From Desulfobotulus pelophilus (GTDB lineage: Bacteria > Desulfobacterota > Desulfobacteria > Desulfobacterales > ASO4-4), in NCBI RefSeq assembly GCF_026155325.1, contig NZ_JAPFPW010000001.1:124001-188000 (forward strand): a DNA stretch of 64,000 bases, written 5' to 3'. Shown piece after piece: positions 4,585 to 14,896 of this stretch (within the stretch, counting starts at the first letter, position 1; the number at the start of each line of letters is the position of its first letter). Made by a program: the position numbers and the translations under genes. The notes beneath the pieces are model-generated. The model saw nothing but the letters and a program-made list of their open reading frames with translations, did not search any database and was not told the origin of the DNA.

Positions 4585-5217
4585 ATGATTGCTGTGGTGG
4601 ATTATGATGCAGGAAACCTGACCAGTGTGGGCAGAGCCCTTGCCCATCTTGGCCAGAAGTATGTGATTACCCGGAACCATGATGAAATTATGGGGGCTGA
4701 CAGGGTCGTATTTCCCGGGGTGGGGGCAGCGGCTTCCGCCATGGAGAGCCTGCGCAGGTATGGCCTTGCTGATGTGTTGAAAAGGGTGCTGGCTTCGGGC
4801 CGACCGCTGCTGGGTATCTGCCTGGGAACCCAGATCATAACCGGTTACAGTGAAGAAGGGAGTGTCCCTTGTCTGGATCTGATTCCGGGAAGAGTGAGAG
4901 CCTTTCCCCTTGCCATGACAGAGGATGGAGGCAGGCCGTTAAAGATTCCCCATATGGGATGGAATACGGTGGTTGTCCGGAAGCCTCATCCCGTTCTGCA
5001 GGATATGGAAGAGGGGGATGCCTTTTATTTTGTCCATGGCTACTATCCGGAGCCTGAAAACAGGGAGCATATTCTGGCCACCACGGCCTACGGCATTGAT
5101 TTTGTTTCCGCCATGGGATTCGAAAACCTTGTGGCTACTCAGTTCCATCCGGAAAAAAGTGGGGAGCCCGGCCTGAGGCTGTTGGATCACTTCTGCCGCT
5201 GGGAGGGGCGTCCATGA
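4585..5217 (+). CDS. hisH: Imidazole glycerol phosphate synthase, glutaminase subunit
   Basis: Class I glutamine amidotransferase of 210 residues. It releases ammonia from glutamine and channels it to HisF for imidazole ring closure in histidine synthesis. The N-terminus [16 protein letters not shown] is characteristic. The nucleophile is Cys79 in LLGICLGTQ, and the catalytic His188/Glu190 lie in QFHPEKSG near the C-terminus. The oxyanion-region motif FPGVGAA is at about 43-49. The gene sits between mazG (3-nt gap) and hisF (4-nt ATGA overlap), so subunit production is translationally coupled. No other his gene is present in the window, so the pathway genes are dispersed. Confidence 0.95.
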
Positions 5218-6002
5218 AAAGTACCATGACCAAGCGTATCATTCCCTGTCTTGATGTGCGTGAAGGCAGAACCACCAAAGGTGTGAAGTTTGAAAACAAT
5301 GTGGATATCGGCGATCCGGTTGAAATGGCCCGTCATTATTATGAAACCGGTGCCGATGAGCTGGTTTTTTATGATATTACGGCATCCCATGAAAAACGGG
5401 GTATCATGATTGATGTGGTGCGCAGGGTGGCGGAAACCATTTTTATTCCCTTTTCTGTGGGCGGTGGCATTGCGTCTGTGGCGGATATGAGGGATGTCCT
5501 GCTGGCAGGTGCAGAAAAGGTCAGTGTCAATTCTGCTGCCATCCGGAGTCCGGAGATTATTGCCAAAGGTGCTGATGCCTTTGGCAGTCAGTGTATTGTG
5601 GTGGGAATGGATGTGAAAAAAGTTGAGAAGAGCGAAACCATCCCTTCCGGATATGAGATGGTGATCCATGGAGGAAGAACCTTTACGGGTATGGACGCCC
5701 TTTTCTGGGCAAAGGAAGTCCATCGCCTGGGAGCAGGAGAAATCTGCCTGAACTCCATTGATGCGGACGGAACCCGTGATGGGTATGAATTAGCACTGAC
5801 CGCCATGATCTCCGGGGCTGTTTCCATTCCGGTGATTGCTTCCGGCGGAGGCGGTACTCCTTTACACCTGGAAAAGGTGTTGACCGAAGGCAGGGCGGAC
5901 GCGGCACTGATTGCTTCCATGGTCCATTATGGGGATTACACCCTGCCCGGCATCAAAGATCATCTCCATGCTGCCGGTATTCCCGTCCGGCGGCGGTGGT
6001 AA
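5214..6002 (+). CDS. hisF: Imidazole glycerol phosphate synthase, cyclase subunit
   Basis: A (beta/alpha)8-barrel of 262 residues. It uses HisH-derived ammonia and PRFAR to make imidazole glycerol phosphate and AICAR. The catalytic aspartates fit D14 in IIPCLDV and D133 in VVGMDVKK. Phosphate-binding loops PFSVGGGI and VIASGGGG are intact. The start ATG overlaps hisH and follows GGAGGGGCG. The HisF-specific [18 protein letters not shown] segment and complete catalytic residues argue for true HisF rather than the PseA/WbuZ-type paralogues of surface-sugar clusters. A short GC stem with four T residues follows the stop. Confidence 0.95.
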
Positions 6003-6083: not shown

Positions 6084-6539
6084 TCAGAAGAAATCTCCCC
6101 TTCGGAATTTTTCCACTTCCACTCTTGCCAGAAGGGCCGTTCGGCGGGCAAGGGTCTGTGCCGGGTCTTCTTCTGTTTCAGCGCTTTCCTTGAAAAGGGA
6201 TTCCGCATCCCGGCCCAGCTTTTCCACCATGGGTTCCAGATCTTTCAGATCCTGAATGGGATTCAGGAGGGCTGAGCTGAAATGATCCATAAGACTGACA
6301 AGATTCCGGGTACGATCTTCCACGGAAGAATCAAAAAGAGTACCCATTCCCATGGCTCTGGGAGGAGGCAGGGGCGTTTGTGCTTTCAGAGTCTGCATGC
6401 TGGAAGATGTCATGGGATTCATGGCCGTTTTAAGGGCATCCTGAAAATCTGTGCCCTGGGTTTTATGGCGCAGATCTGTTTCCGTATTCCGGATATCAGG
6501 GGCCGGTGTATATTCGGGGCGGTTTGTAATGCGGTCCAT
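6084..6539 (-). CDS. Unknown protein with sigma-54 promoter, probably flagellar
   Basis: Hydrophilic 151-residue protein that I do not recognise. It has no signal peptide or membrane segment. The N-terminal 70 residues are rich in Thr/Pro/Gln and look disordered, with DFQDALKTAM. Residues 80-150 are predicted helical (LVSLMDHFSSALL, LKDLEPMVEKLG) and end RRGDFF. AAGGAGG precedes the ATG by 4 nt. A near-perfect sigma-54 promoter lies 46 nt upstream, and flgM lies beyond. Sigma-54 drives middle flagellar genes in many proteobacteria, so a flagellar assembly, export or chaperone role is a reasonable inference, but nothing in the sequence proves it. Confidence 0.75.
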   Translation of the reverse strand: MDRITNRPEYTPAPDIRNTETDLRHKTQGTDFQDALKTAMNPMTSSSMQTLKAQTPLPPPRAMGMGTLFDSSVEDRTRNLVSLMDHFSSALLNPIQDLKDLEPMVEKLGRDAESLFKESAETEEDPAQTLARRTALLARVEVEKFRRGDFF

Positions 6540-6584
6540 ACGGCCTCCTTGGTCAAAGGAAAATCATGTTCGTTTGATAATTTA

Positions 6585-6599
6585 GCAAATGTGGTGCCA
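6585..6599 (-). promoter_or_regulatory. Sigma-54 (-24/-12) promoter
   Basis: On the minus strand the sequence reads TGGCAC-N5-TTGC followed by T. GG and GC are separated by exactly 10 nt, matching the RpoN consensus TGGCACG-N4-TTGCW at all but one informative position. It points at the 151-residue gene starting at 6539. Transcription would begin near 6573. The activator site was not identified. Confidence 0.75.
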
Positions 6600-6763
6600 G
6601 AGTAAAAGCCTTTGGGCCTGCCGCCTCTGTTTTTTGGGTTCCGTTGATAACATGAGCCCTGATAAAGCAAGAGGTACCGCGTAGAGTTTTTTCTGTAGTT
6701 TATAGGTCATGGTTATCAGAAAAGGTCTGTGAGTGTACCCGTGGGGAGGAAGGGGAAGCGAAC

Positions 6764-6788
6764 CCGGTAGGAAAAAAGTTCCTACCGG
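6764..6788 (-). terminator. Hairpin downstream of flgM
   Basis: Perfect 10-bp stem CCGGTAGGAA/TTCCTACCGG with a 5-nt loop, 34 nt past the flgM stop. On the minus strand the U-rich stretch is in the loop rather than after the stem. It may therefore be a factor-dependent terminator or an mRNA-stabilising end rather than a classic intrinsic terminator. Confidence 0.5.
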
Positions 6789-6821
6789 TAAGGCATGAGT
6801 AGAAAGGAGGGGAAGTTTTTT

Positions 6822-7127
6822 CTATATCATGGAATCTCTGTGGGCAGAAAGCATGGCTTTGGCAATTCGTTCAGGATCCGGTGTATAAGTACCGCTTTGG
6901 ATCTGATGTTTCAGCCGTTCAATACGTTCCGACCGGAAATCCTCCACTGATGAGGCTTTTGTCTCGCGGATCTCCATCCGTTCCCGTGAGTTGGAGGAAA
7001 GGCTTACTTTGTCAGCTCGGTTTTCTGCTCCTGCCTTTTGGTTTTCTTTTGTTTTTTCACGAACCTGCTGCGTTTCTTTTGACAGCGAGGCACTTTTTAT
7101 GCCTGAGAGCATGGTATGGATTTTCAT
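6822..7127 (-). CDS. flgM: Negative regulator of flagellin synthesis (anti-sigma-28)
   Basis: FlgM of 101 residues, the usual size. It binds sigma-28 (FliA) until the hook-basal body is complete and is then exported through the flagellar secretion channel. The N-terminal half is polar and disordered (KETQQVREKTKENQKAG). The C-terminal half carries the sigma-28-binding helices with the diagnostic pattern RSERIERLKHQIQSGTYTPDPERIAKAML. The ATG at 7127 follows GGGGGGAAATT. It lies 117 nt downstream of a small gene with a sigma-28 promoter, which suggests late-class expression and autoregulation. Confidence 0.9.
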   Translation of the reverse strand: MKIHTMLSGIKSASLSKETQQVREKTKENQKAGAENRADKVSLSSNSRERMEIRETKASSVEDFRSERIERLKHQIQSGTYTPDPERIAKAMLSAHRDSMI

Positions 7128-7244
7128 AATTTCCCCCCTTCCTTTCCTTATTTGCCATGTATGCCCGAAAACCGTTTTTATAATTCTGGTATGAAAATCA
7201 TACGGGATACAGAGAAAAACAGCTTTTGGCCAGACACTACCACG

Positions 7245-7667
7245 TTATATTCGGCGGTTTTGGGTCTCCGCGGTTGTGCCTGCCAGACGTTTCAGCACAA
7301 TATCCGCATCTTTCAGTGAAACACTCCGTGTTGTCTTCCGGTTCCGGTCATCCAGCGTATTGTAAACAAACTTTTGCTCGCTGTCTTCTCTGACAGAAGA
7401 GCTGGTTTTCCAGCTTTCTTCTTCCGGAAGGGGGTATCTGTTTGTACCCGTGGAATCCTGGGGACCGTCTTTGGTTATTCTTTCAACAATATCCGATGTG
7501 ATTTTCTGGATCATGCTTTCCCTCTTGCCTTCGGCGGAGAGAAGGGTCGGATCTTCCTTGGTCTCAAGGGGCTGTGACGGAGAAGAGTCGTCAGCCAGCC
7601 GCTTACGGGTGATCTGCTGACTGTAAAGCTTCAGGACATTGTGTATCTGATAGCCGGGTACATGCAT
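7245..7667 (-). CDS. Small conserved protein upstream of flgM, function unknown
   Basis: Polar 140-residue protein beginning MHVPGYQIHNVLKLYSQQITRKR. Short proteins with this kind of N-terminus (a predicted helix HNVLKLYSQQI) occur beside flgM in Desulfovibrio-type bacteria; this is from memory and not a search result. The middle is low-complexity and charged, and the C-terminus SVSLKDADIVLKRL is helical. There is no signal peptide or membrane segment. Strong TAAGGAG ribosome site; a sigma-28-type promoter sits 27 nt before the ATG. Context implies late flagellar expression, possibly as a flagellar chaperone or regulatory partner. Confidence 0.75.
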   Translation of the reverse strand: MHVPGYQIHNVLKLYSQQITRKRLADDSSPSQPLETKEDPTLLSAEGKRESMIQKITSDIVERITKDGPQDSTGTNRYPLPEEESWKTSSSVREDSEQKFVYNTLDDRNRKTTRSVSLKDADIVLKRLAGTTAETQNRRI

Positions 7668-7693
7668 GGCCTTCTCCTTATAGTCTGTTGTCC

Positions 7694-7721
7694 CTATCGG
7701 CGTCTGAAAAGGAGAGCTTTA
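7694..7721 (-). promoter_or_regulatory. Sigma-28 (FliA) promoter for the flgM operon
   Basis: On the minus strand: TAAAG, then GCCGATAG, with 16 nt between TAAA and GCCGAT. The consensus is TAAAGTTT-N11-GCCGATAA. Seven of eight -10 positions match. It fires toward the 140-residue gene and flgM, giving FlgM a feedback loop on sigma-28. Confidence 0.7.
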
Positions 7722-7777
7722 GATTTTTTTTAAAGGAATTCTTCCGGACAGATAGTAGGAGAAATTGTTGCAGAAAG

Positions 7778-8281
7778 TCAAGCCATGTAGAGATCCCGGT
7801 AGATACGGACGAAACGCTCGTGGCTGTCAAAGGCCAGAGGAGGGAGGGCCGTCATGGGAAAAAATGCCAGATCCATGGCATCATCTCCGGAGGCAGGTTC
7901 CCCTGAAAAGGTTCGGATAAGAAAGCCTGTGATGAGAACCGCACCGTACATGGCGCTGGGGTGGGCCGTCACTCCGATGAGTTTATGGATTTTGCCACGG
8001 AGGCCTGTTTCTTCAAAAAGCTCTCGTAAAGCTGTGTCTTCGGGGCTTTCTTCCAGTTCCATGAAGCCCCCTGGCAGGCACCACTCCCCTTTTTTAGGGG
8101 GGACGGCACGGCGGACCAGCAGAAGACGGTTCTCTGTATCGATAACCAGAGTACAGGCCGCAGGTATGGGGTTTTCATAGAGAATTTTGCCGCATTCACG
8201 GCAGCAGGAACGGATACGGCCCTCCGTTGTTCGTTGCTCCAGAAGACCAGAGCAAAAAGGGCAGAATTTTTTGGCTGGCAT
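7778..8281 (-). CDS. Nudix hydrolase with N-terminal zinc ribbon
   Basis: 167-residue hydrolase of nucleoside diphosphate-linked compounds. Residues 1-35 form a zinc ribbon with CPFC (Cys7/Cys10) and CREC (Cys27/Cys30), as in NudC-like NADH pyrophosphatases. The Nudix box at about residues 71-93 is complete: GGFMELEESPEDTALRELFEETG fits GX5EX7REUXEEXGU. The C-terminal NudC signature SQPWPFPxS is absent, so substrate is not assigned. It belongs to a common family of about 170-180 residues with probable ADP-ribose/NADH-type activity. It is read as a single gene, with a hairpin 31 nt before its start. Confidence 0.85.
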   Translation of the reverse strand: MPAKKFCPFCSGLLEQRTTEGRIRSCCRECGKILYENPIPAACTLVIDTENRLLLVRRAVPPKKGEWCLPGGFMELEESPEDTALRELFEETGLRGKIHKLIGVTAHPSAMYGAVLITGFLIRTFSGEPASGDDAMDLAFFPMTALPPLAFDSHERFVRIYRDLYMA

Positions 8282-8310
8282 GACTTTTCCCCGATGATTG
8301 ATAAAGCCAT

Positions 8311-8333
8311 GCCGGGAGGGAGTTACTCCCGGC
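8311..8333 (-). terminator. Hairpin between aldolase and Nudix genes
   Basis: Perfect 8-bp stem GCCGGGAG/CTCCCGGC with a 7-nt loop, 174 nt after the aldolase stop and just upstream of the Nudix start. On the minus strand it is followed by ATGGCTTTAT, so the U-tract is poor. It is either the aldolase terminator or a leader hairpin. Confidence 0.4.
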
Positions 8334-8506
8334 GGCTAGTGGGCTGACTAAATAAAGCATGGCAGGGCTGCAAGGCTGTGAACAGAGGTAAGTTTTCTGT
8401 TACTACCGGTTTGTATCCGTCATAGCGTTCTGATTCTCATGGCCAGGCAGGTTGCAGCACGGCGCCAGGTGGAGGGAGGCAGCCATACGGAAACGATAGC
8501 AAGGGA

Positions 8507-9790
8507 TTACTCGTCAAAGTCGCCTTCAGGTCCCTTGTCTGTGTCCATGAGGGAGGCTTTGTGAATGATTTTTTCTTTTGTCCAGTTTAAAGGGTCCTCT
8601 ATGCGTTCGGCTTTGGGACCGGGATCGAAGCTCTGTTTTTCAAGAATTTCTTCCATGACCAGGTTTGCCGTGTCTTTTGCATTGAAAACATTGACCAAAA
8701 GATCATAGGTGAAGGCTTCAATGCGTGCGACCATGCGGTCCCGGATTTCCTTTGGCTGTCCGAGGATTTTGTTTTCAAAGGGAAGATTGAGTTTTTTAAA
8801 GTTGCTTCCCTTGATATCCCTTTCATCAGCATAGGCTTTCATTTCCGTCCAGAGGCTGTCATCAAGCCCCTCACCGGCAAGTTTTCTGACATCTCCTTTT
8901 TCATCCATCACCGCATTACCAAAGGGATTGACCTCCATACCCCAGCCGATCATCTGCAGGGCTGTGGCTACATTGGCTTTGGTGGTGGCGGTTTCCTTTG
9001 CGATGCGACGGAGTTTTTCCGCATCATTGCCAGAAGTGCCGTGCTGAGCACCGGAAATTTTGTAGGGAGCAAGGGCCTTGTGAATTTTTTCGGTCAGTTC
9101 GATCTGTATGCCGTCTTCACTGGCCTCTATGCCATGGGTGGTGCCGTTATTCAGGGCGATCCAGTTGGGGAAAATACCGTGTGCGTTGAGCCCCTGAATA
9201 AGGAACAGTGCTTCTTCGGGTGTGGAGAGTCCTTGATTCCCCTTGATTTCTCCTACTTCCGTTTCCAGTCCTGCCCAGGAGGGGATGAGGTCGGCAACGG
9301 CAATATTTGTCAGAAGATTGAGATCATCGGGCATGTGAGAGGCATCAATGGCAATGGATGTGATGCCAGCTTCAAACAGGGACGGGATTTCCCTGCGGGC
9401 ACCGGGGAGGTCTTCTTCTTTTTTGATGCCGTAGTGGTCGGCGTGTATGGCCACGGGGATGGTAATGTTCAGCTCGTTGGCAATGGCATCCACCTGCCGG
9501 GCCATGTTCCACAGGCTTACGGGGCAGTAGGCATCTGCTCCTCCTTCGGATCGGGCGATTTCTATAATGATAGCTGCATTGGCCTTCTGGGCTGCCAGCA
9601 GTACACCCCGGATGATGATATGGCTTCTGGCATTGGCAGCGATGGTCATGCACTGGCCTTTTCGAATCATGGCATTGTCAATGTATTTACCACTGACCAG
9701 AAGCGCTTTGGAATTGGGGAAAAGGCGGGTGATATTCGGCGGACGGCCTACTTTGACGGCCTTTTCAAAATCCGCATTGTACAGGGTCAT
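8507..9790 (-). CDS. fba: Class II fructose-bisphosphate aldolase-type enzyme
   Basis: Zinc-dependent class II aldolase of 427 residues, which would cleave or form fructose 1,6-bisphosphate in glycolysis/gluconeogenesis. Motifs include HADHYG (metal-binding His), the acidic DASHM, GLETEVGEI, NNGTTHG and the phosphate-loop region GAQHGTSG. It is longer than the E. coli enzyme (359 aa) and belongs to the approximately 430-residue subgroup seen in Deltaproteobacteria and relatives. The frame is open to 9922, but the ATG at 9790 has AAGGAG at good spacing and begins the conserved part (MTLYNADFEK). A different ketose-bisphosphate substrate cannot be excluded. The upstream neighbour is the split LysO pair. 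Confidence 0.8.
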   Translation of the reverse strand: MTLYNADFEKAVKVGRPPNITRLFPNSKALLVSGKYIDNAMIRKGQCMTIAANARSHIIIRGVLLAAQKANAAIIIEIARSEGGADAYCPVSLWNMARQVDAIANELNITIPVAIHADHYGIKKEEDLPGARREIPSLFEAGITSIAIDASHMPDDLNLLTNIAVADLIPSWAGLETEVGEIKGNQGLSTPEEALFLIQGLNAHGIFPNWIALNNGTTHGIEASEDGIQIELTEKIHKALAPYKISGAQHGTSGNDAEKLRRIAKETATTKANVATALQMIGWGMEVNPFGNAVMDEKGDVRKLAGEGLDDSLWTEMKAYADERDIKGSNFKKLNLPFENKILGQPKEIRDRMVARIEAFTYDLLVNVFNAKDTANLVMEEILEKQSFDPGPKAERIEDPLNWTKEKIIHKASLMDTDKGPEGDFDE

Positions 9791-9918
9791 GGAAATCTCC
9801 TTGGGGTTGGGTTGCTTTCCCATTTTGGCAAAGGGGTTATGGAAAGGCAGGCAGGGTGCCTGCTTTATTATGTAAAAAAGCCAGTCAGGTTTCTTTATAA
9901 GGAAGAATGCTTTGAATA

Positions 9919-10524
9919 TCAAGCACCGCAGGAGAGAATGCTTGTTACCAGCACAGGGGTTAAAAAGGTGAGAATCACTCCTGAAAAAAGAGCAACGAGG
10001 GCATACTCTTTTCCAGTGAAGCGTACAATAACGGGCAGTGTGGTATCCATGGCCGTGGCCCCGCCTGCCGCTATGCCCGAAAACCTGCCGCAGTAGCGCA
10101 CCAGAAGGGGGGTGGCCGTGAGAGCCACAATTTCACGAATGATATTGGAGAGAAGGGCAATGAGACCAAGGGTTTCTCCGGCCATCTGTGAAATGAGAAT
10201 GCTGGACAGAGAGTAATATCCCAGACCGGCCCCTATGGCGGCGCCTTCCTGAAAGGTAAGGGGCAGGAAAAGGGCGGCTACCATTCCCGGAAAAAGAATG
10301 GAGCCAGTGGCGATGGCAAGGGGCAGGAGGAGAAGGGTGGGCCGGATACGGCGTACCATGCTCATGGTTTCCTTTTTGCTGCCAATTCCTGCTCCCACAA
10401 GAAAAAGGAGGAGGTACAATGCCGCAAGGGACAGCTGTTCCGCCGGTATGGTGTGGGAAAATGGTAGAAAAAGGGCTGCGGTTAGCCCAAGGATAAAGGC
10501 GGCAATGATTTTCAGGCTACCCAT
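9919..10524 (-). CDS. LysO-type exporter, C-terminal (core) subunit
   Basis: Hydrophobic 201-residue protein with about six transmembrane helices. It corresponds to the C-terminal DUF340/LysO domain of the E. coli L-lysine exporter LysO (YbjE, about 299 aa). Features include PFSHTIPAEQ, the FLVGAGIGSKKE loop and GLGYYSLSSILISQMAGETLGLIALLSNIIRE, with ATAMDTTLPVI near the end. The start at 10524 is the first residue of the domain; an upstream in-frame extension overlaps the preceding gene and lacks family similarity. It overlaps the N-terminal subunit gene by 8 nt, so translation is coupled. Substrate is inferred from the family. Confidence 0.8.
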   Translation of the reverse strand: MGSLKIIAAFILGLTAALFLPFSHTIPAEQLSLAALYLLLFLVGAGIGSKKETMSMVRRIRPTLLLLPLAIATGSILFPGMVAALFLPLTFQEGAAIGAGLGYYSLSSILISQMAGETLGLIALLSNIIREIVALTATPLLVRYCGRFSGIAAGGATAMDTTLPVIVRFTGKEYALVALFSGVILTFLTPVLVTSILSCGA

Positions 10525-11240: not shown

Positions 11241-11993
11241 ATGCAGCTTAGAAAATTGATTGGTGGAATGGTTGTGGGTTTTGGGCTTTGCTGGGGCATA
11301 TCCCTCCGTCCCGGCTGGGCAGGGGATGCCGCCATGGCTCTTCAGGAGGCGCATCAGGCCCAGGCAGCCATGGATATTCTCATGGAGGAGATGGCTGTGG
11401 CTCGGGCGGATTTCAGGCGCTTGCAGATGGAGGCGGAAGTCCTTGTCTATGAAAACCGCATTCTGGACGAACGTCTGGATGTGCAGGAGAAGAAGCGGAA
11501 GCAACGGAAGGCTGTAGGTGGGGATACTCTGCGTTTTACCCGTCATGTGGAATGGGTTATGGGTGAGCTTGCTGAACGGATGGGGTTGCGTATGGATTTT
11601 CTTCCTCCCTTTCGTATGGAAAGTCGCATAGAGCGGCTGGATGCCTTTCGCTCTATGCTGGTAAATGCTGAAAAATCAACGGAAGAACGGTTTTATGCGG
11701 CCCTTGATCTTCTGGAAGCAGAACTGAATGTAGGGATTTTTCCGGATGTGGTTTCCGGATCCATGGAGCAGGAAGGTGAGGTTGTGCGGGGTAGTCTGCT
11801 GCATTTGGGGGCAGCAGGACTTTTCTTCCTCAGCCCGGATGAGAGAAGGGCTGCCAGATGGTGCGCGGATAAAAAGACTTTTCTGATGTTGGACCGGAGC
11901 GAAGCAAGGCTTGTCAGTCAGGCCTTTGCCATGGTGGAACGCCGTATGCCTGCAGAAGTGGTGTTGCTTCCTGTCATGTCCGAGGTGCCCTGA
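11241..11993 (+). CDS. DUF3450 periplasmic protein of TonB2-type operon
   Basis: 250-residue exported protein with a signal peptide (cleavage near PGWAG/DAA, residues 26-29). A coiled coil spans about residues 30-95 (MEEMAVARADFRRLQMEAEVLVYENRILDERLDVQEKKRK). A globular C-terminal domain has VRGSLLHLGAAGLFFLSPDERRAARW. This layout is DUF3450, a family typically encoded first in Vibrio-type TonB2 loci followed by TtpC. It probably acts in the periplasm with the TonB complex. AAGGAGTTGC precedes the ATG. It overlaps the ttpC-like start by 1 nt (TGATG) in a six-gene operon. Confidence 0.85.
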   Translation: MQLRKLIGGMVVGFGLCWGISLRPGWAGDAAMALQEAHQAQAAMDILMEEMAVARADFRRLQMEAEVLVYENRILDERLDVQEKKRKQRKAVGGDTLRFTRHVEWVMGELAERMGLRMDFLPPFRMESRIERLDAFRSMLVNAEKSTEERFYAALDLLEAELNVGIFPDVVSGSMEQEGEVVRGSLLHLGAAGLFFLSPDERRAARWCADKKTFLMLDRSEARLVSQAFAMVERRMPAEVVLLPVMSEVP

Positions 11994-13381
11994 TGTGCTT
12001 CCTGTGGAGATGGGGCCTTTGGCTTATGATCTGTATGATGGCTGGGAACCTGTACGCTTCACCCCAGGATGGGCCGTTGCTGCGCCTTAAAGAGGATGCC
12101 GCCATGCAAAGGGTGTTGCTGGAACAGGAAAAAAAGGCGCTTGGGGAACGGCGAAGTCTCCTTGAGGAGACGGTGTATCGGCTGGAGGTGGAAAACCGGA
12201 AAAAGAAGCAGGCTCTGGATCTTCTTGTGGCGGAGACCCGCAGGGCGGAAGAGGAAAGGGCCGCGCTGCGCAGTACGGAAACCGCGGTGATGGCATCCAT
12301 GGCCGAAGCAAGGGAGCGTTTTGTCACTCTGTTGGGCGCTGGTATTACCTTGCCCCTGAGGCCTCTGGATCCGAAGGGTGAAGACCCGGAGGAAGAGGTT
12401 CGTTTTTTCATTGAATCCCTGTTATTTCACCTTGACGCTGCCGATGGCATTGGGCGTGAGGTTCACTCTTTCACCGCTGGAGATGGCATGACGGAGGAGG
12501 CTTTTGTGACCCGGGTGGGCGCTCTGGCTCTGCTGGGTCATAACGGTGAGGGCCGTTTTTTTTTCCTGACTCCACGGGAAGATCAGAGACAATACATGGA
12601 GGCGCAGCGGGTGCCTGGGTTCCGGGAACGCCGCATCGTCAGGCAGTTTATGGAAGGGCAGGGCTTCCTTTTGCCGGTGGATCTTTCCGGTGGCAGCGTT
12701 TTGTCCGGCTCTTCGGGCCATGTGGCTTTTGCCGACCGACTGCGTGAGGGCGGCCTCCTGATCTGGCCCATTGTCCTGCTGGGAGTAACGGGCGGGCTGC
12801 TTTTTGTGCAGAGGGCCTTTTTTCTTTTCAGGCTTTCTTTCTCCCATGGCCGGACGGAAGATCTGATTGGCCTTGCCCTTGAAGGAGACCGGAATCACCG
12901 GAATGGGAAAAGCCGGAGAAGCCCGGCTTTTGATGTGGTGGCAAAGGCTGTGAAGATGCGCCATGAGCCTCCTGCCGTGAGGGAACAGGCCGTGGAAGGC
13001 GCGGTGGCATCCTGGGCGGATAGCATGGAGAAAGGGCTTGCCAGTCTGGGGGTTATGGCAGCTCTGGCACCCATGCTCGGGCTTCTGGGAACGGTTACGG
13101 GCATGATGGCCTCCTTCAGGGTGATGAGCCGTATGGGAGCGGGAGATATCCGGCTTATGTCCGGAGGAATTTCAGAGGCTCTGGTGACAACCCAGTGGGG
13201 ACTTGCCGTTGCCGTACCTCTGATGCTGGCCCATCATCTCCTTGCCCGCAGGGCGGAAAGACTGGCTCTGGAGGCGGAAGACAGAGGTGCCGAAGCTCTG
13301 GTTCTGCTGGAAAATGACTGTCACAGAGGGGCAGGGAAGCCTGCCCGGACAACCGGAAACGGCAGCGAGGAGTCATGCTGA
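11993..13381 (+). CDS. ttpC: TtpC-like ExbB/TolQ proton channel with periplasmic N-terminal domain
   Basis: 462-residue inner-membrane protein. It starts with a signal sequence (1-22) and a coiled coil (about 30-105), then a domain resembling the upstream DUF3450 protein (ALALLGHNGEGRFFFLTPREDQRQY). A membrane helix at about 250-275 (LLIWPIVLLGVTGGLLFVQRAFF) follows, and then a MotA/TolQ/ExbB core with LGVMAALAPMLGLLGTVTGMMASF and GGISEALVTTQWGLAVAVPLML. In Vibrio, TtpC is an essential extra component of the TonB2 complex. It is followed by a second, short ExbB. The symbol is by analogy of architecture and gene order. Confidence 0.85.
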   Translation: MCFLWRWGLWLMICMMAGNLYASPQDGPLLRLKEDAAMQRVLLEQEKKALGERRSLLEETVYRLEVENRKKKQALDLLVAETRRAEEERAALRSTETAVMASMAEARERFVTLLGAGITLPLRPLDPKGEDPEEEVRFFIESLLFHLDAADGIGREVHSFTAGDGMTEEAFVTRVGALALLGHNGEGRFFFLTPREDQRQYMEAQRVPGFRERRIVRQFMEGQGFLLPVDLSGGSVLSGSSGHVAFADRLREGGLLIWPIVLLGVTGGLLFVQRAFFLFRLSFSHGRTEDLIGLALEGDRNHRNGKSRRSPAFDVVAKAVKMRHEPPAVREQAVEGAVASWADSMEKGLASLGVMAALAPMLGLLGTVTGMMASFRVMSRMGAGDIRLMSGGISEALVTTQWGLAVAVPLMLAHHLLARRAERLALEAEDRGAEALVLLENDCHRGAGKPARTTGNGSEESC

Positions 13382-13800
13382 TGATGCCGGATTGGATAAG
13401 CGCATTCTGGCATGCATGGCTTGAAGGCGGATTCTGGATCTGGCCGCTGGCTCTGATGGCTTCATCCATATGGGCTCTGGGACTGAAAACACTGTGGGAT
13501 ATGAGGTTTTCCCAAAGAGATGATTTCCCGCCGGATTTTCCGGGATATCGTATACGGGCGATCCGTGTACTGTCTGCGGCAGCTCCCCTTCTGGGACTTC
13601 TGGGTACGGTTTCTGCCATGACAGGTATCTTTACGGGGCTGGAGGCGGGAGGTTTTGCAGGGGATCGTGCCATGGCAGGAGGCATTGCCCAGGCCCTTGT
13701 CAGTACCCAGGCCGGATTGTTGACCGCCATACCGGGAGTTTTTCTGGCTCATGTGCTGGAGTTGCGCCAGCGGTCTGAAAAAGGGAGAATGTGGGAATGA
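13381..13800 (+). CDS. exbB: ExbB-family biopolymer transport proton channel
   Basis: Short ExbB/TolQ-family protein of about 139 residues with three membrane helices. The conserved core LSAAAPLLGLLGTVSAMTGIF and GGIAQALVSTQAGLLTAIPGVFLAHVLE is intact. It lacks the long cytoplasmic loop of classical ExbB, as is normal for ExbB2 of TtpC-containing systems. With ExbD it harvests the proton gradient to energise TonB. The ORF opens at 13375, but the ribosome site GAGGAG is only 2 nt from that ATG. The ATG at 13381 is better spaced and gives a 1-nt overlap with ttpC. Confidence 0.85.
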   Translation: MMPDWISAFWHAWLEGGFWIWPLALMASSIWALGLKTLWDMRFSQRDDFPPDFPGYRIRAIRVLSAAAPLLGLLGTVSAMTGIFTGLEAGGFAGDRAMAGGIAQALVSTQAGLLTAIPGVFLAHVLELRQRSEKGRMWE

Positions 13801-14207
13801 AACGGGCATTGCGTCAGCGTCGGAACCGAAATGTACCGGGATTGGACATGGCGCCTCTTCTGGATATGATTTTTATTTTGCTGATTTTTTTTGTGGTACA
13901 TGCCAGCTTTATCCGGGAGACAGCCGTACCCATCGAAAGGCCTTCTGCCCGGAGTGCGGTCAATTCGGATCAGGTCCGGCTGGTGCTCACTGTCGATGCG
14001 GCGGGAACCGTCTATCTGGAGGACAGGGCGGTGGATCCGGGAGTTCTTCGAGGACGGATGCAGGATTTTGCTTCTAAAAATCCGGGAGCCGTTGTGGTGG
14101 TGGCTGCCGACAGGGATGCGGCTTCCGGAGCCCTGATCCGGGTGCTGGATATCTGTCGGCTGGCTGGGGTCCAGCATCTTGCCCTTGCGGCAAGGAGGCC
14201 TCTGTGA
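13797..14207 (+). CDS. exbD: ExbD-family biopolymer transport protein
   Basis: 136-residue ExbD. It has a short cytoplasmic N-terminus rich in Arg, then the signature LDMAPLLDMIFILLIFFVVHASF with the protonatable Asp (LLDMIF) in the single membrane helix, then a periplasmic domain (VRLVLTVDAAGTVYLEDRAV and VVVAADRDAASGALIRVLDICRLAG). The ATG at 13797 forms an ATGA overlap with exbB and is well spaced from GGGAGA. A GTG six bases upstream is a poorer alternative. Confidence 0.9.
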   Translation: MKRALRQRRNRNVPGLDMAPLLDMIFILLIFFVVHASFIRETAVPIERPSARSAVNSDQVRLVLTVDAAGTVYLEDRAVDPGVLRGRMQDFASKNPGAVVVVAADRDAASGALIRVLDICRLAGVQHLALAARRPL

Positions 14208-14896
14208 AACAGGTGGTTGTCTGGCTGGTGTGCTGGTTGCTGGGGCTGGGGCTGGCCCTTGTTGTTTTCGGTGTGTTTCTTCTGTCTGGAGGGCACCGGG
14301 CTTCCGTGCCCGTATGGGAGGGAACTCCCTTTCTTCTTCAGACGGATTTGTCCCCTTTCATGGAGGAGTCCGCTGTCAGGCGCTCGGAATCTCCTCCCGC
14401 CGTGCCGGAGCTGGGTGAAGATCTTCCGGATATTCAGGGTTTTACCCTGCCTCCGGCCTTCGACCCCGCCTTACCTGAAGTTTCCCTGAATTGGATGGAT
14501 ACGGAAAGCAGAGTATTGTTGCCCGATGCAGCAGATCTGCCTGTTTTCCCGGCCGGGAACAGTGCCTCTGGAGAGAAGGGGCTGTCTGGTTCGATTGTGT
14601 ACGGTCCTGGAGAGCTGGATGAGATTCCCTATCCCGTTCACCGGGTGATTCCTCCTTTTCCCCAAGCTGCTAGAAGGCAGGGTATCCGTCAGGGAAGGGT
14701 ACGATTGCTGCTTGAAGTGGACAGCAGTGGCCGGGTACGGGAGATTCAGGTACTGGAGGCGGATCCGCCCGGTTATTTTGAAGGTGTTTCCGTGGATGCG
14801 GTGAAAAGGTGGCGCTTTACACCTGGCAAAGTGGACGGGTTGGATGTGCGTACCCGTTTTGAGCTGCCCATACAGTTTGGAGATGAGAAATCGTGA
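14204..14896 (+). CDS. tonB: TonB-family energy transducer
   Basis: 230-residue TonB-like protein with a single N-terminal membrane anchor (residues 4-29) and a moderately Pro-rich periplasmic spacer lacking long Lys-Pro repeats. Its C-terminal TonB domain (about 135-226) has the usual IPPFPQAARRQGIRQGRVRL, DSSGRVREIQVLEADP and SVDAVKRWRFTP. It would connect the ExbBD/TtpC motor to TonB-dependent outer-membrane receptors. The short spacer is typical of TonB2 proteins. The start is a GTG with AAGGAGG five bases upstream and a GTGA overlap with exbD. Confidence 0.9.
   Translation: MKQVVVWLVCWLLGLGLALVVFGVFLLSGGHRASVPVWEGTPFLLQTDLSPFMEESAVRRSESPPAVPELGEDLPDIQGFTLPPAFDPALPEVSLNWMDTESRVLLPDAADLPVFPAGNSASGEKGLSGSIVYGPGELDEIPYPVHRVIPPFPQAARRQGIRQGRVRLLLEVDSSGRVREIQVLEADPPGYFEGVSVDAVKRWRFTPGKVDGLDVRTRFELPIQFGDEKS

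Follow-up and report, generated by a model that had tools for sequence, protein, structure and literature searches.

A flagellum-linked gene beside flgM in Desulfobotulus pelophilus is probably a distant relative of fliX

What is the role of a short gene that lies beside flgM, appears to carry a sigma-54 promoter of its own and yet goes unnamed in the family libraries searched? This question is raised by a gene, designated X, in the 64-kb stretch of Desulfobotulus pelophilus DNA analysed here (referred to as the window). The original prediction, made from sequence, placed an exact TGGCAC-N5-TTGC motif 46 nt before an unrecognised 151-residue gene, with flagellar regulators as its neighbours and a sigma-28 promoter ahead of the adjoining unit. 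Each of these elements was recovered (Table 1), the only correction being that TGGCACCACATTTGC is separated from the ATG of X by 45 nt rather than 46. Orthologues of the same length occur in two congeners, with 70% and 67% identity to the X protein. Scans of the single window protein against Pfam and NCBIfam gave no family that names it; matches to ArlX/FlaX (about 14 bits) and DUF2884 (14 bits) fell far below the cut-offs of these libraries and were rejected. Beyond the stop codon of X lies a convergent gene that we take from its translation to be hisF (5214-6002, (+)). A further set of open reading frames at 11993-14896 presumably encodes ExbB/ExbD/TonB-type proteins, followed by a TPR protein.

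Table 1. Features of the X locus, in window coordinates.
Feature	Position	Strand	Evidence
X, 151-aa FliX-like gene	6084..6539	(-)	ORF of 151 codons from ATG; profile match; hhalign to FliX; AlphaFold2 model
Predicted sigma-54 promoter TGGCACCACATTTGC of X	6585..6599	(-)	exact match to TGGCAC-N5-TTGC; conserved in congeners and orthologues
Perfect 10-bp inverted repeat CCGGTAGGAA-N5-TTCCTACCGG between flgM and X	6764..6788	(-)	read from sequence; conserved in both congeners
flgM, anti-sigma-28 factor	6822..7127	(-)	TIGR03824 61.6 bits, PF04316 60.4 bits
DVU0524-family FlgM-associated protein	7245..7667	(-)	NF041863 55.7 bits, cut-off 40
Sigma-28 promoter TAAAG-N15-GCCGATA of the DVU0524-flgM unit	7695..7721	(-)	exact match

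A profile built from 30 members of the X family was searched against 96 genomes, and a match was obtained in 45 of these, the window genome included. FlhA (PF00771) is encoded in 52 of the same 96 genomes. In all 45 cases X is accompanied by flhA; the 44 genomes lacking flhA are without X, as are seven of those that contain flhA. In a larger draw of 395 genomes from the phylum, 133 contain X, 249 contain FlhA and 128 contain both, and 121 genomes with FlhA gave no X at E<=0.001. X is hence common but not universal among flagellated members of the phylum. Five genomes of this draw have X without FlhA. Rod genes are present in two of these (G165 and G204), and in G139 a flgB-flgC-fliE-fliF series lies beside X; the flgB and flgC genes of G139 were seen by similarity and missed by the rod-family search, so absence as judged by family search is imperfect. 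The original prediction had regarded orthologues in non-flagellated species as evidence against it, and the search for these returned nothing beyond two weak matches, of 20.1 and 31 bits in G217 and G453 respectively, both in genomes for which the family search gave no rod-gene match. The 31 X loci that bear a name include Desulfotignum, Desulfosudis, Desulfamplus, Desulfospira and Desulfobacula, with four assigned only to Proteobacteria/Deltaproteobacteria. The matches are spread over the Desulfobacterota, and those named to genus fall in genera of sulfate reducers (e.g. Desulfamplus, of the order Desulfobacterales). X is thus a real, flagellum-linked gene, and its family is widespread in this phylum.

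The AlphaFold2 model of X (based on 32 sequences; mean pLDDT 71.7, pTM 0.48) predicts a loose N-terminus, a helix at residues 30-40 and a three-helix bundle spanning residues 71-147. A fold search of the PDB returned 469 matches at E<=10, none of which reached E<=0.001. When the PDB was searched by sequence, the best match (E 0.042) was a designed coiled coil, which was rejected.

Comparison at the profile level was more informative. An hhalign comparison of the X profile with two FliX sequences gave 88.3% over 111 columns for the 30-member alignment and 95.9% over 135 columns for a wider alignment of 46 members. The latter comprises 46 of 51 listed sequences, five having been dropped by hand (three over-long or with unsettled starts, one weak match and one containing an N run). 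The FliX pair, only two sequences, consists of the annotated Erythrobacter aureus protein (77 bits) and an unannotated Niveispirillum protein (125 bits for PF10768). The nine control sets from other flagellar families (three consisting of a single sequence) reached at most 1.9%, and neither the reversed FliX pair nor any of 39 column-shuffled FliX pairs exceeded 0.9%. Family scans point in the same direction. FliX (PF10768) was the most frequent Pfam family among the 30 members at E<=0.1, with five members matched (best E 3e-8), followed by AAA_27 and ArlX with three members each; the NCBIfam FliX models matched four, two and one of the 30. For the 46 wider members at E<=0.01, Pfam FliX matched four and the NCBIfam FliX models six, three and one (best 2.4e-5), and no family other than FliX was matched more than once.

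Scans of ten single members returned FliX for two, both below the cut-off (17.7 and 13.4 bits). The X member of G076 scores 33.7 bits against a PF10768 cut-off of 25, over positions 1-134 of 135, and is the only one in the 96 genomes to exceed that cut-off. At E<=1, a PF10768 search of these genomes gave a match in 21, four of them on X (G076, G088, G029 and G037) and 17 elsewhere; of the seven best matches, four fall on X genes, the top one included. Given the 17 matches outside X, and three archaeal controls that also match at E<=1, FliX matches below the cut-off carry little weight alone. Neither the window protein nor any other protein of its genome matches FliX at E<=1 in Pfam, and as the window protein falls below Pfam's rule for FliX it is filed here as FliX-like. 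A plasmid tblastn search with an X family member found no FliX (three matches, E 0.5 to 3).

A joint alignment of 76 X sequences with the two FliX proteins identifies residues common to both families. The Phe at FliX position 25 is found in 76 of 76 X sequences and in both FliX, as are Glu at 131 (73 of 76 X) and Lys/Arg at 134 (75 of 76 X). Replacement of FliX L85 by Lys abolishes FlbD binding, according to excerpts of PMC3096577. At the position of X that would best correspond to L85 by offset, 56 of the 76 sequences have Leu and 13 have Met, the window protein having Met84; this tentative fit is anchored on the DD pair and presupposes an ungapped match, the Caulobacter sequence itself lying outside the alignment. 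Judged by the profile comparison, the X family is probably distantly homologous to FliX, which regulates a sigma-54 activator in trans.

Could the likeness to FliX reflect no more than a short, helical flagellar protein? X would then be an export substrate or an assembly factor (of the rod, hook or filament class, or a chaperone) made with the middle class. The disordered N-terminus with its F-x-x-x-L motif ahead of a helical bundle would fit such a role, as would the rod-type gene found beside X in G165, G298 and G224 and the weak matches of single X members to coiled-coil families. We nevertheless regard this as rather unlikely, since FlgN, FlgM, FliS, FliE, FlgB, FlgJ, FliJ and FliT all fall within the 1.9% limit of the controls against 88-96% for FliX, and shuffling of the FliX columns, which keeps the composition and loses the order, also abolishes the match. 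The suggestion of an undescribed flagellar component stands in its link to the flagellum, as judged by co-occurrence with flhA, but probably not as a structural component, the profile comparison pointing instead to a FliX-like regulator.

The position of X behind flgM offers a second possibility. Among the 45 genomes that contain X, there are 21 in which it is the next gene after flgM, read from the same strand, and a DVU0524-family gene is present in the same neighbourhood at all five annotated flgM-linked loci. X might accordingly act on the sigma-28 side, modulating the stability or export of FlgM or the release of FliA (a fliA gene was found by similarity in the window genome). However, in the other 24 genomes X was not found beside flgM, which is located elsewhere or on another contig in 21 and gave no match in three, and X may there adjoin sigma-54 activators or HDOD genes. 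Furthermore, the sigma-54 promoter predicted for X is conserved and separate from the one of sigma-28 type that precedes the flgM unit. An action on FlgM is thus improbable. The sigma-28 promoter is the sole match in the window at no more than one mismatch (0.13 expected), and the sequence therefore offers two promoters, that of sigma-28 type for DVU0524-flgM and that of sigma-54 type for X. The inverted repeat that separates flgM from X is absent from the terminator scan list, and with no T run following it, one can only guess that it serves as a terminator.

To what extent can the sigma-54 promoter be relied upon? A single exact TGGCAC-N5-TTGC match is present in the window against 0.21 expected, and the complete 3.66-Mb genome has 11 compared to two for a reversed control pattern. 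An exact motif in 64 kb is not overwhelming by itself, and it is conservation that makes the predicted promoter convincing. In an alignment of the window genome with the two congeners, the sigma-54 core has retained its bases where most of the surrounding sequence has drifted, as have the start-codon region and the inverted repeat. Conservation was quantified in the 200 nt upstream of X, with 200 dinucleotide shuffles as control, for 42 of the 45 genomes with X (G047, G087 and G090 being left out, and MKI-type starts used where settled). Sites matching at least 8 of 10 positions with GG and GC intact were found in 23 of the 42 regions, compared to 1.15 ± 1.1 expected (maximum 6). At thresholds of at least 7, 8 and 9 of 10, the counts were 28, 23 and 13 regions, with 4.3, 1.15 and 0.2 in the shuffles and 2, 0 and 0 on the reverse strand. 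A smaller set of 39 regions behaved similarly (25, 21 and 12 at the same thresholds; at the threshold of 8, 0.99 shuffled and 0 reverse). The -24/-12 GG and GC elements are thus conserved with the right spacing in X orthologues. The promoter of X is a conserved, predicted sigma-54 type, and its use would be expected to depend on RpoN. That the motif is a chance match and X unrelated to flagella is scarcely credible, for although at least one exact motif arose in 18 of 100 shuffles of the window, such a reading is contradicted by conservation over the 42 upstream regions and by the finding that, in 96 genomes, X occurs only where flhA is present. Five genomes in which X is linked to HDOD genes (G029, G088, G076, G055 and G031) have no site of at least 8 with GG/GC intact upstream of X, and the sigma-54 wiring hence belongs to part of the X family.

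Other flagellar loci of the D. pelophilus genome deserve brief comment. Sigma-54-like sites matching 9 of 10 positions occur just before a flagellin-like open reading frame (L165:5721, (-)) and before the TPR-activator-flgB stretch (L164:16076, (-)). Both are to be expected if a class of flagellar genes is under sigma-54 here; an 8 of 10 scan also yields many intragenic sites. Several flagellar proteins, recognised by open reading frame and similarity, are very large (L165:1826-5686 and 6554-10396, L162:10304-17585 and L163:13391-16153). The flagellin-like (1286 and 1280 aa), FlgK-like (1372 aa), FlgL-like (1052 aa) and FlgE-like (920 aa) open reading frames far exceed the lengths of their E. 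coli references.

If X is a regulator of the FliX kind, a sigma-54 activator would be its presumed partner, and the surroundings of X in relatives offer a candidate. The order X-activator-TPR-activator-flgB is found in G094, G073 and G379, and X-activator-activator-flgB in G139; an activator-like open reading frame also lies beside X in G321. HDOD genes are found beside X in G029 and G076 (by Pfam) and in G088, G031 and G055 (by similarity). Relatives' loci L143, L151, L142, L149 and L161 combine X with HDOD-domain genes, and not with flgM or activators. In the window genome, the activator-TPR-activator-flgB cluster is located on another contig (C7) than X. A TPR protein of about 850-880 aa is encoded between the paired sigma-54 activators that precede flgB, here and in many relatives (L164:13408-15954 in the window genome, L145:6744-9395 and L160:7511-10165); in some genomes a histidine kinase adjoins the flgB-linked activator in its place.

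The activator linked to flgB in the window genome has kept its AAA+ and Fis HTH domains, with a receiver that is degenerate. Response_reg scores 22.4 bits against a cut-off of 30.2, and inspection by eye reveals Val in place of the phosphoacceptor Asp and Leu in place of the conserved Lys. The second activator of the cluster has no receiver match in Pfam. The flgB-linked receiver of both congeners likewise looks unfit for phosphorylation. More widely, the Asp is lost in 21 and kept in 16 of 37 evaluable genomes with X (G087 being at a contig end, and the flgB region not covered in G037, G045, G047, G049, G069, G076 and G091), the receiver columns being taken from one automatic alignment with only those of the window genome read by eye. 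G379 and G139, which lie outside the 96 genomes and the 37, both keep the Asp. Five of the seven genomes with flhA but without X were evaluated: the Asp is lost in G084 and kept in G014 and G042, and G046 and G050 gave no receiver. A histidine kinase is encoded beside the activator with intact receiver in G086, G088, G029 and in G014, which lacks X, an arrangement we take to be as in FlrBC. No kinase is found at this position in G055 (no convincing Pfam match) or G054 (another activator). A rule that X accompanies only activators without the phosphoacceptor Asp is thus unsupported by the 21 lost and 16 kept of 37. As X also occurs in genomes that keep the Asp, at least three of them with an adjoining kinase, it is not tied to the loss of phosphorylation. 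In addition, the activator without a receiver in the window genome has as its neighbour a gene for a free CheY-like protein whose Asp is intact (L164:17498-17875), so phosphorylation may still matter there.

Taken together, we favour, with somewhat better than even confidence, a model in which X is a small FliX-like flagellar regulator. Its binding partner would be the sigma-54 activator whose gene immediately precedes flgB, and X would couple the activity of this activator to the progress of the basal body. In Caulobacter, FliX binds FlbD and keeps it inactive until early basal-body parts have been built, and then stimulates it (excerpts of PMC3930126 and PMC7064773). By this analogy we infer both the binding and the sign of the effect, and X would make the work of the activator depend on the stage of basal-body building, as FliX does for FlbD. 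With one receiver lacking both Asp and Lys and the other activator lacking a receiver, a protein partner would be a natural substitute for a kinase in the window genome. Given its own sigma-54 promoter, X would be expressed together with the middle genes, once an activator is already at work, and would then feed back on that same activator to close a loop. Its location beside flgM would furthermore place the sigma-54 and sigma-28 checkpoints side by side.

A broader proposal is advanced tentatively and may well prove wrong. Rather than an alphaproteobacterial invention, FliX might be of older date, a partner that senses assembly on behalf of flagellar sigma-54 activators and is widespread in flagellated Desulfobacterota. 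In lineages such as this one, it might have replaced a histidine kinase whose target receiver has decayed, its gene being set beside flgM so as to couple the sigma-54 and sigma-28 checkpoints. Since X is present both in genomes with a kinase and an intact receiver and in genomes with a decayed receiver, a comparison of the two can reveal whether control of the FliX type came before phosphorylation or took its place. Excerpts of PMC7064773 and PMC3930126, which cite work done in Caulobacter, call the means by which FliX signals the assembly of the basal body not understood or unknown. A widespread relative in another phylum, in some genomes next to the activator under its possible control and in others next to flgM, provides natural variation for mapping the contact surface, and the likeness to FliX offers a lead on a gene without a name in the family libraries searched.

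How does the proposed system compare with those already described? The DVU0524 family (NF041863) resembles X in being a small protein beside flgM, in the same neighbourhood, but X does not match it (0.2 and 0.5% by hhalign) and DVU0524 is the other neighbour of flgM in the window. In Desulfovibrio vulgaris, of the same phylum, flagellar genes are under sigma-54 and the response-regulator activator DVU1063, and the main text of that regulome study does not mention FliX, FlbD or FlgM (PMC4641369). The presumed partner resembles the FlbD/FlrC/FleR activators in its combination of receiver, AAA+ and Fis-type HTH domains next to flgB in relatives; a point of difference is the kinase that adjoins the intact receiver in G086, G088, G029 and G014, in the manner of FlrBC. 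The FlbD receiver lacks key phosphorylation residues and the protein is bound by FliX (excerpts of PMC3096577); the flgB-linked activator of the window genome, a candidate counterpart of FlbD, is likened to it by its degenerate receiver.

The closest comparison is with FliX itself. The two families have a similar length, a colinear profile match, the common Phe, Glu and Lys/Arg residues and a hydrophobic residue at the position best fitting L85. Most members of the wider X family have an MKI start, a further point of likeness, and X is flagellar and in some genomes lies beside sigma-54 activators. The families differ in the RGDY-type tail conserved at the C-terminus of X, which is missing from both FliX in the joint alignment. 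They also differ in context, X being found beside flgM and the annotated Erythrobacter FliX gene beside flgI. Excerpts of PMC3096577 state FliX for polarly flagellated Alphaproteobacteria, whereas X occurs in Desulfobacterota; no account of FliX in the latter was found in the open-licence papers searched. X has a predicted sigma-54 promoter, in contrast to Caulobacter fliX, which is early and CtrA-driven, and Caulobacter builds its flagellum without FliA (excerpts of PMC3930126). The FliX-like kind of regulator is therefore already known; what appears to be new is that it occurs in this phylum and is wired in this way, with a sigma-54 promoter and a place beside flgM.
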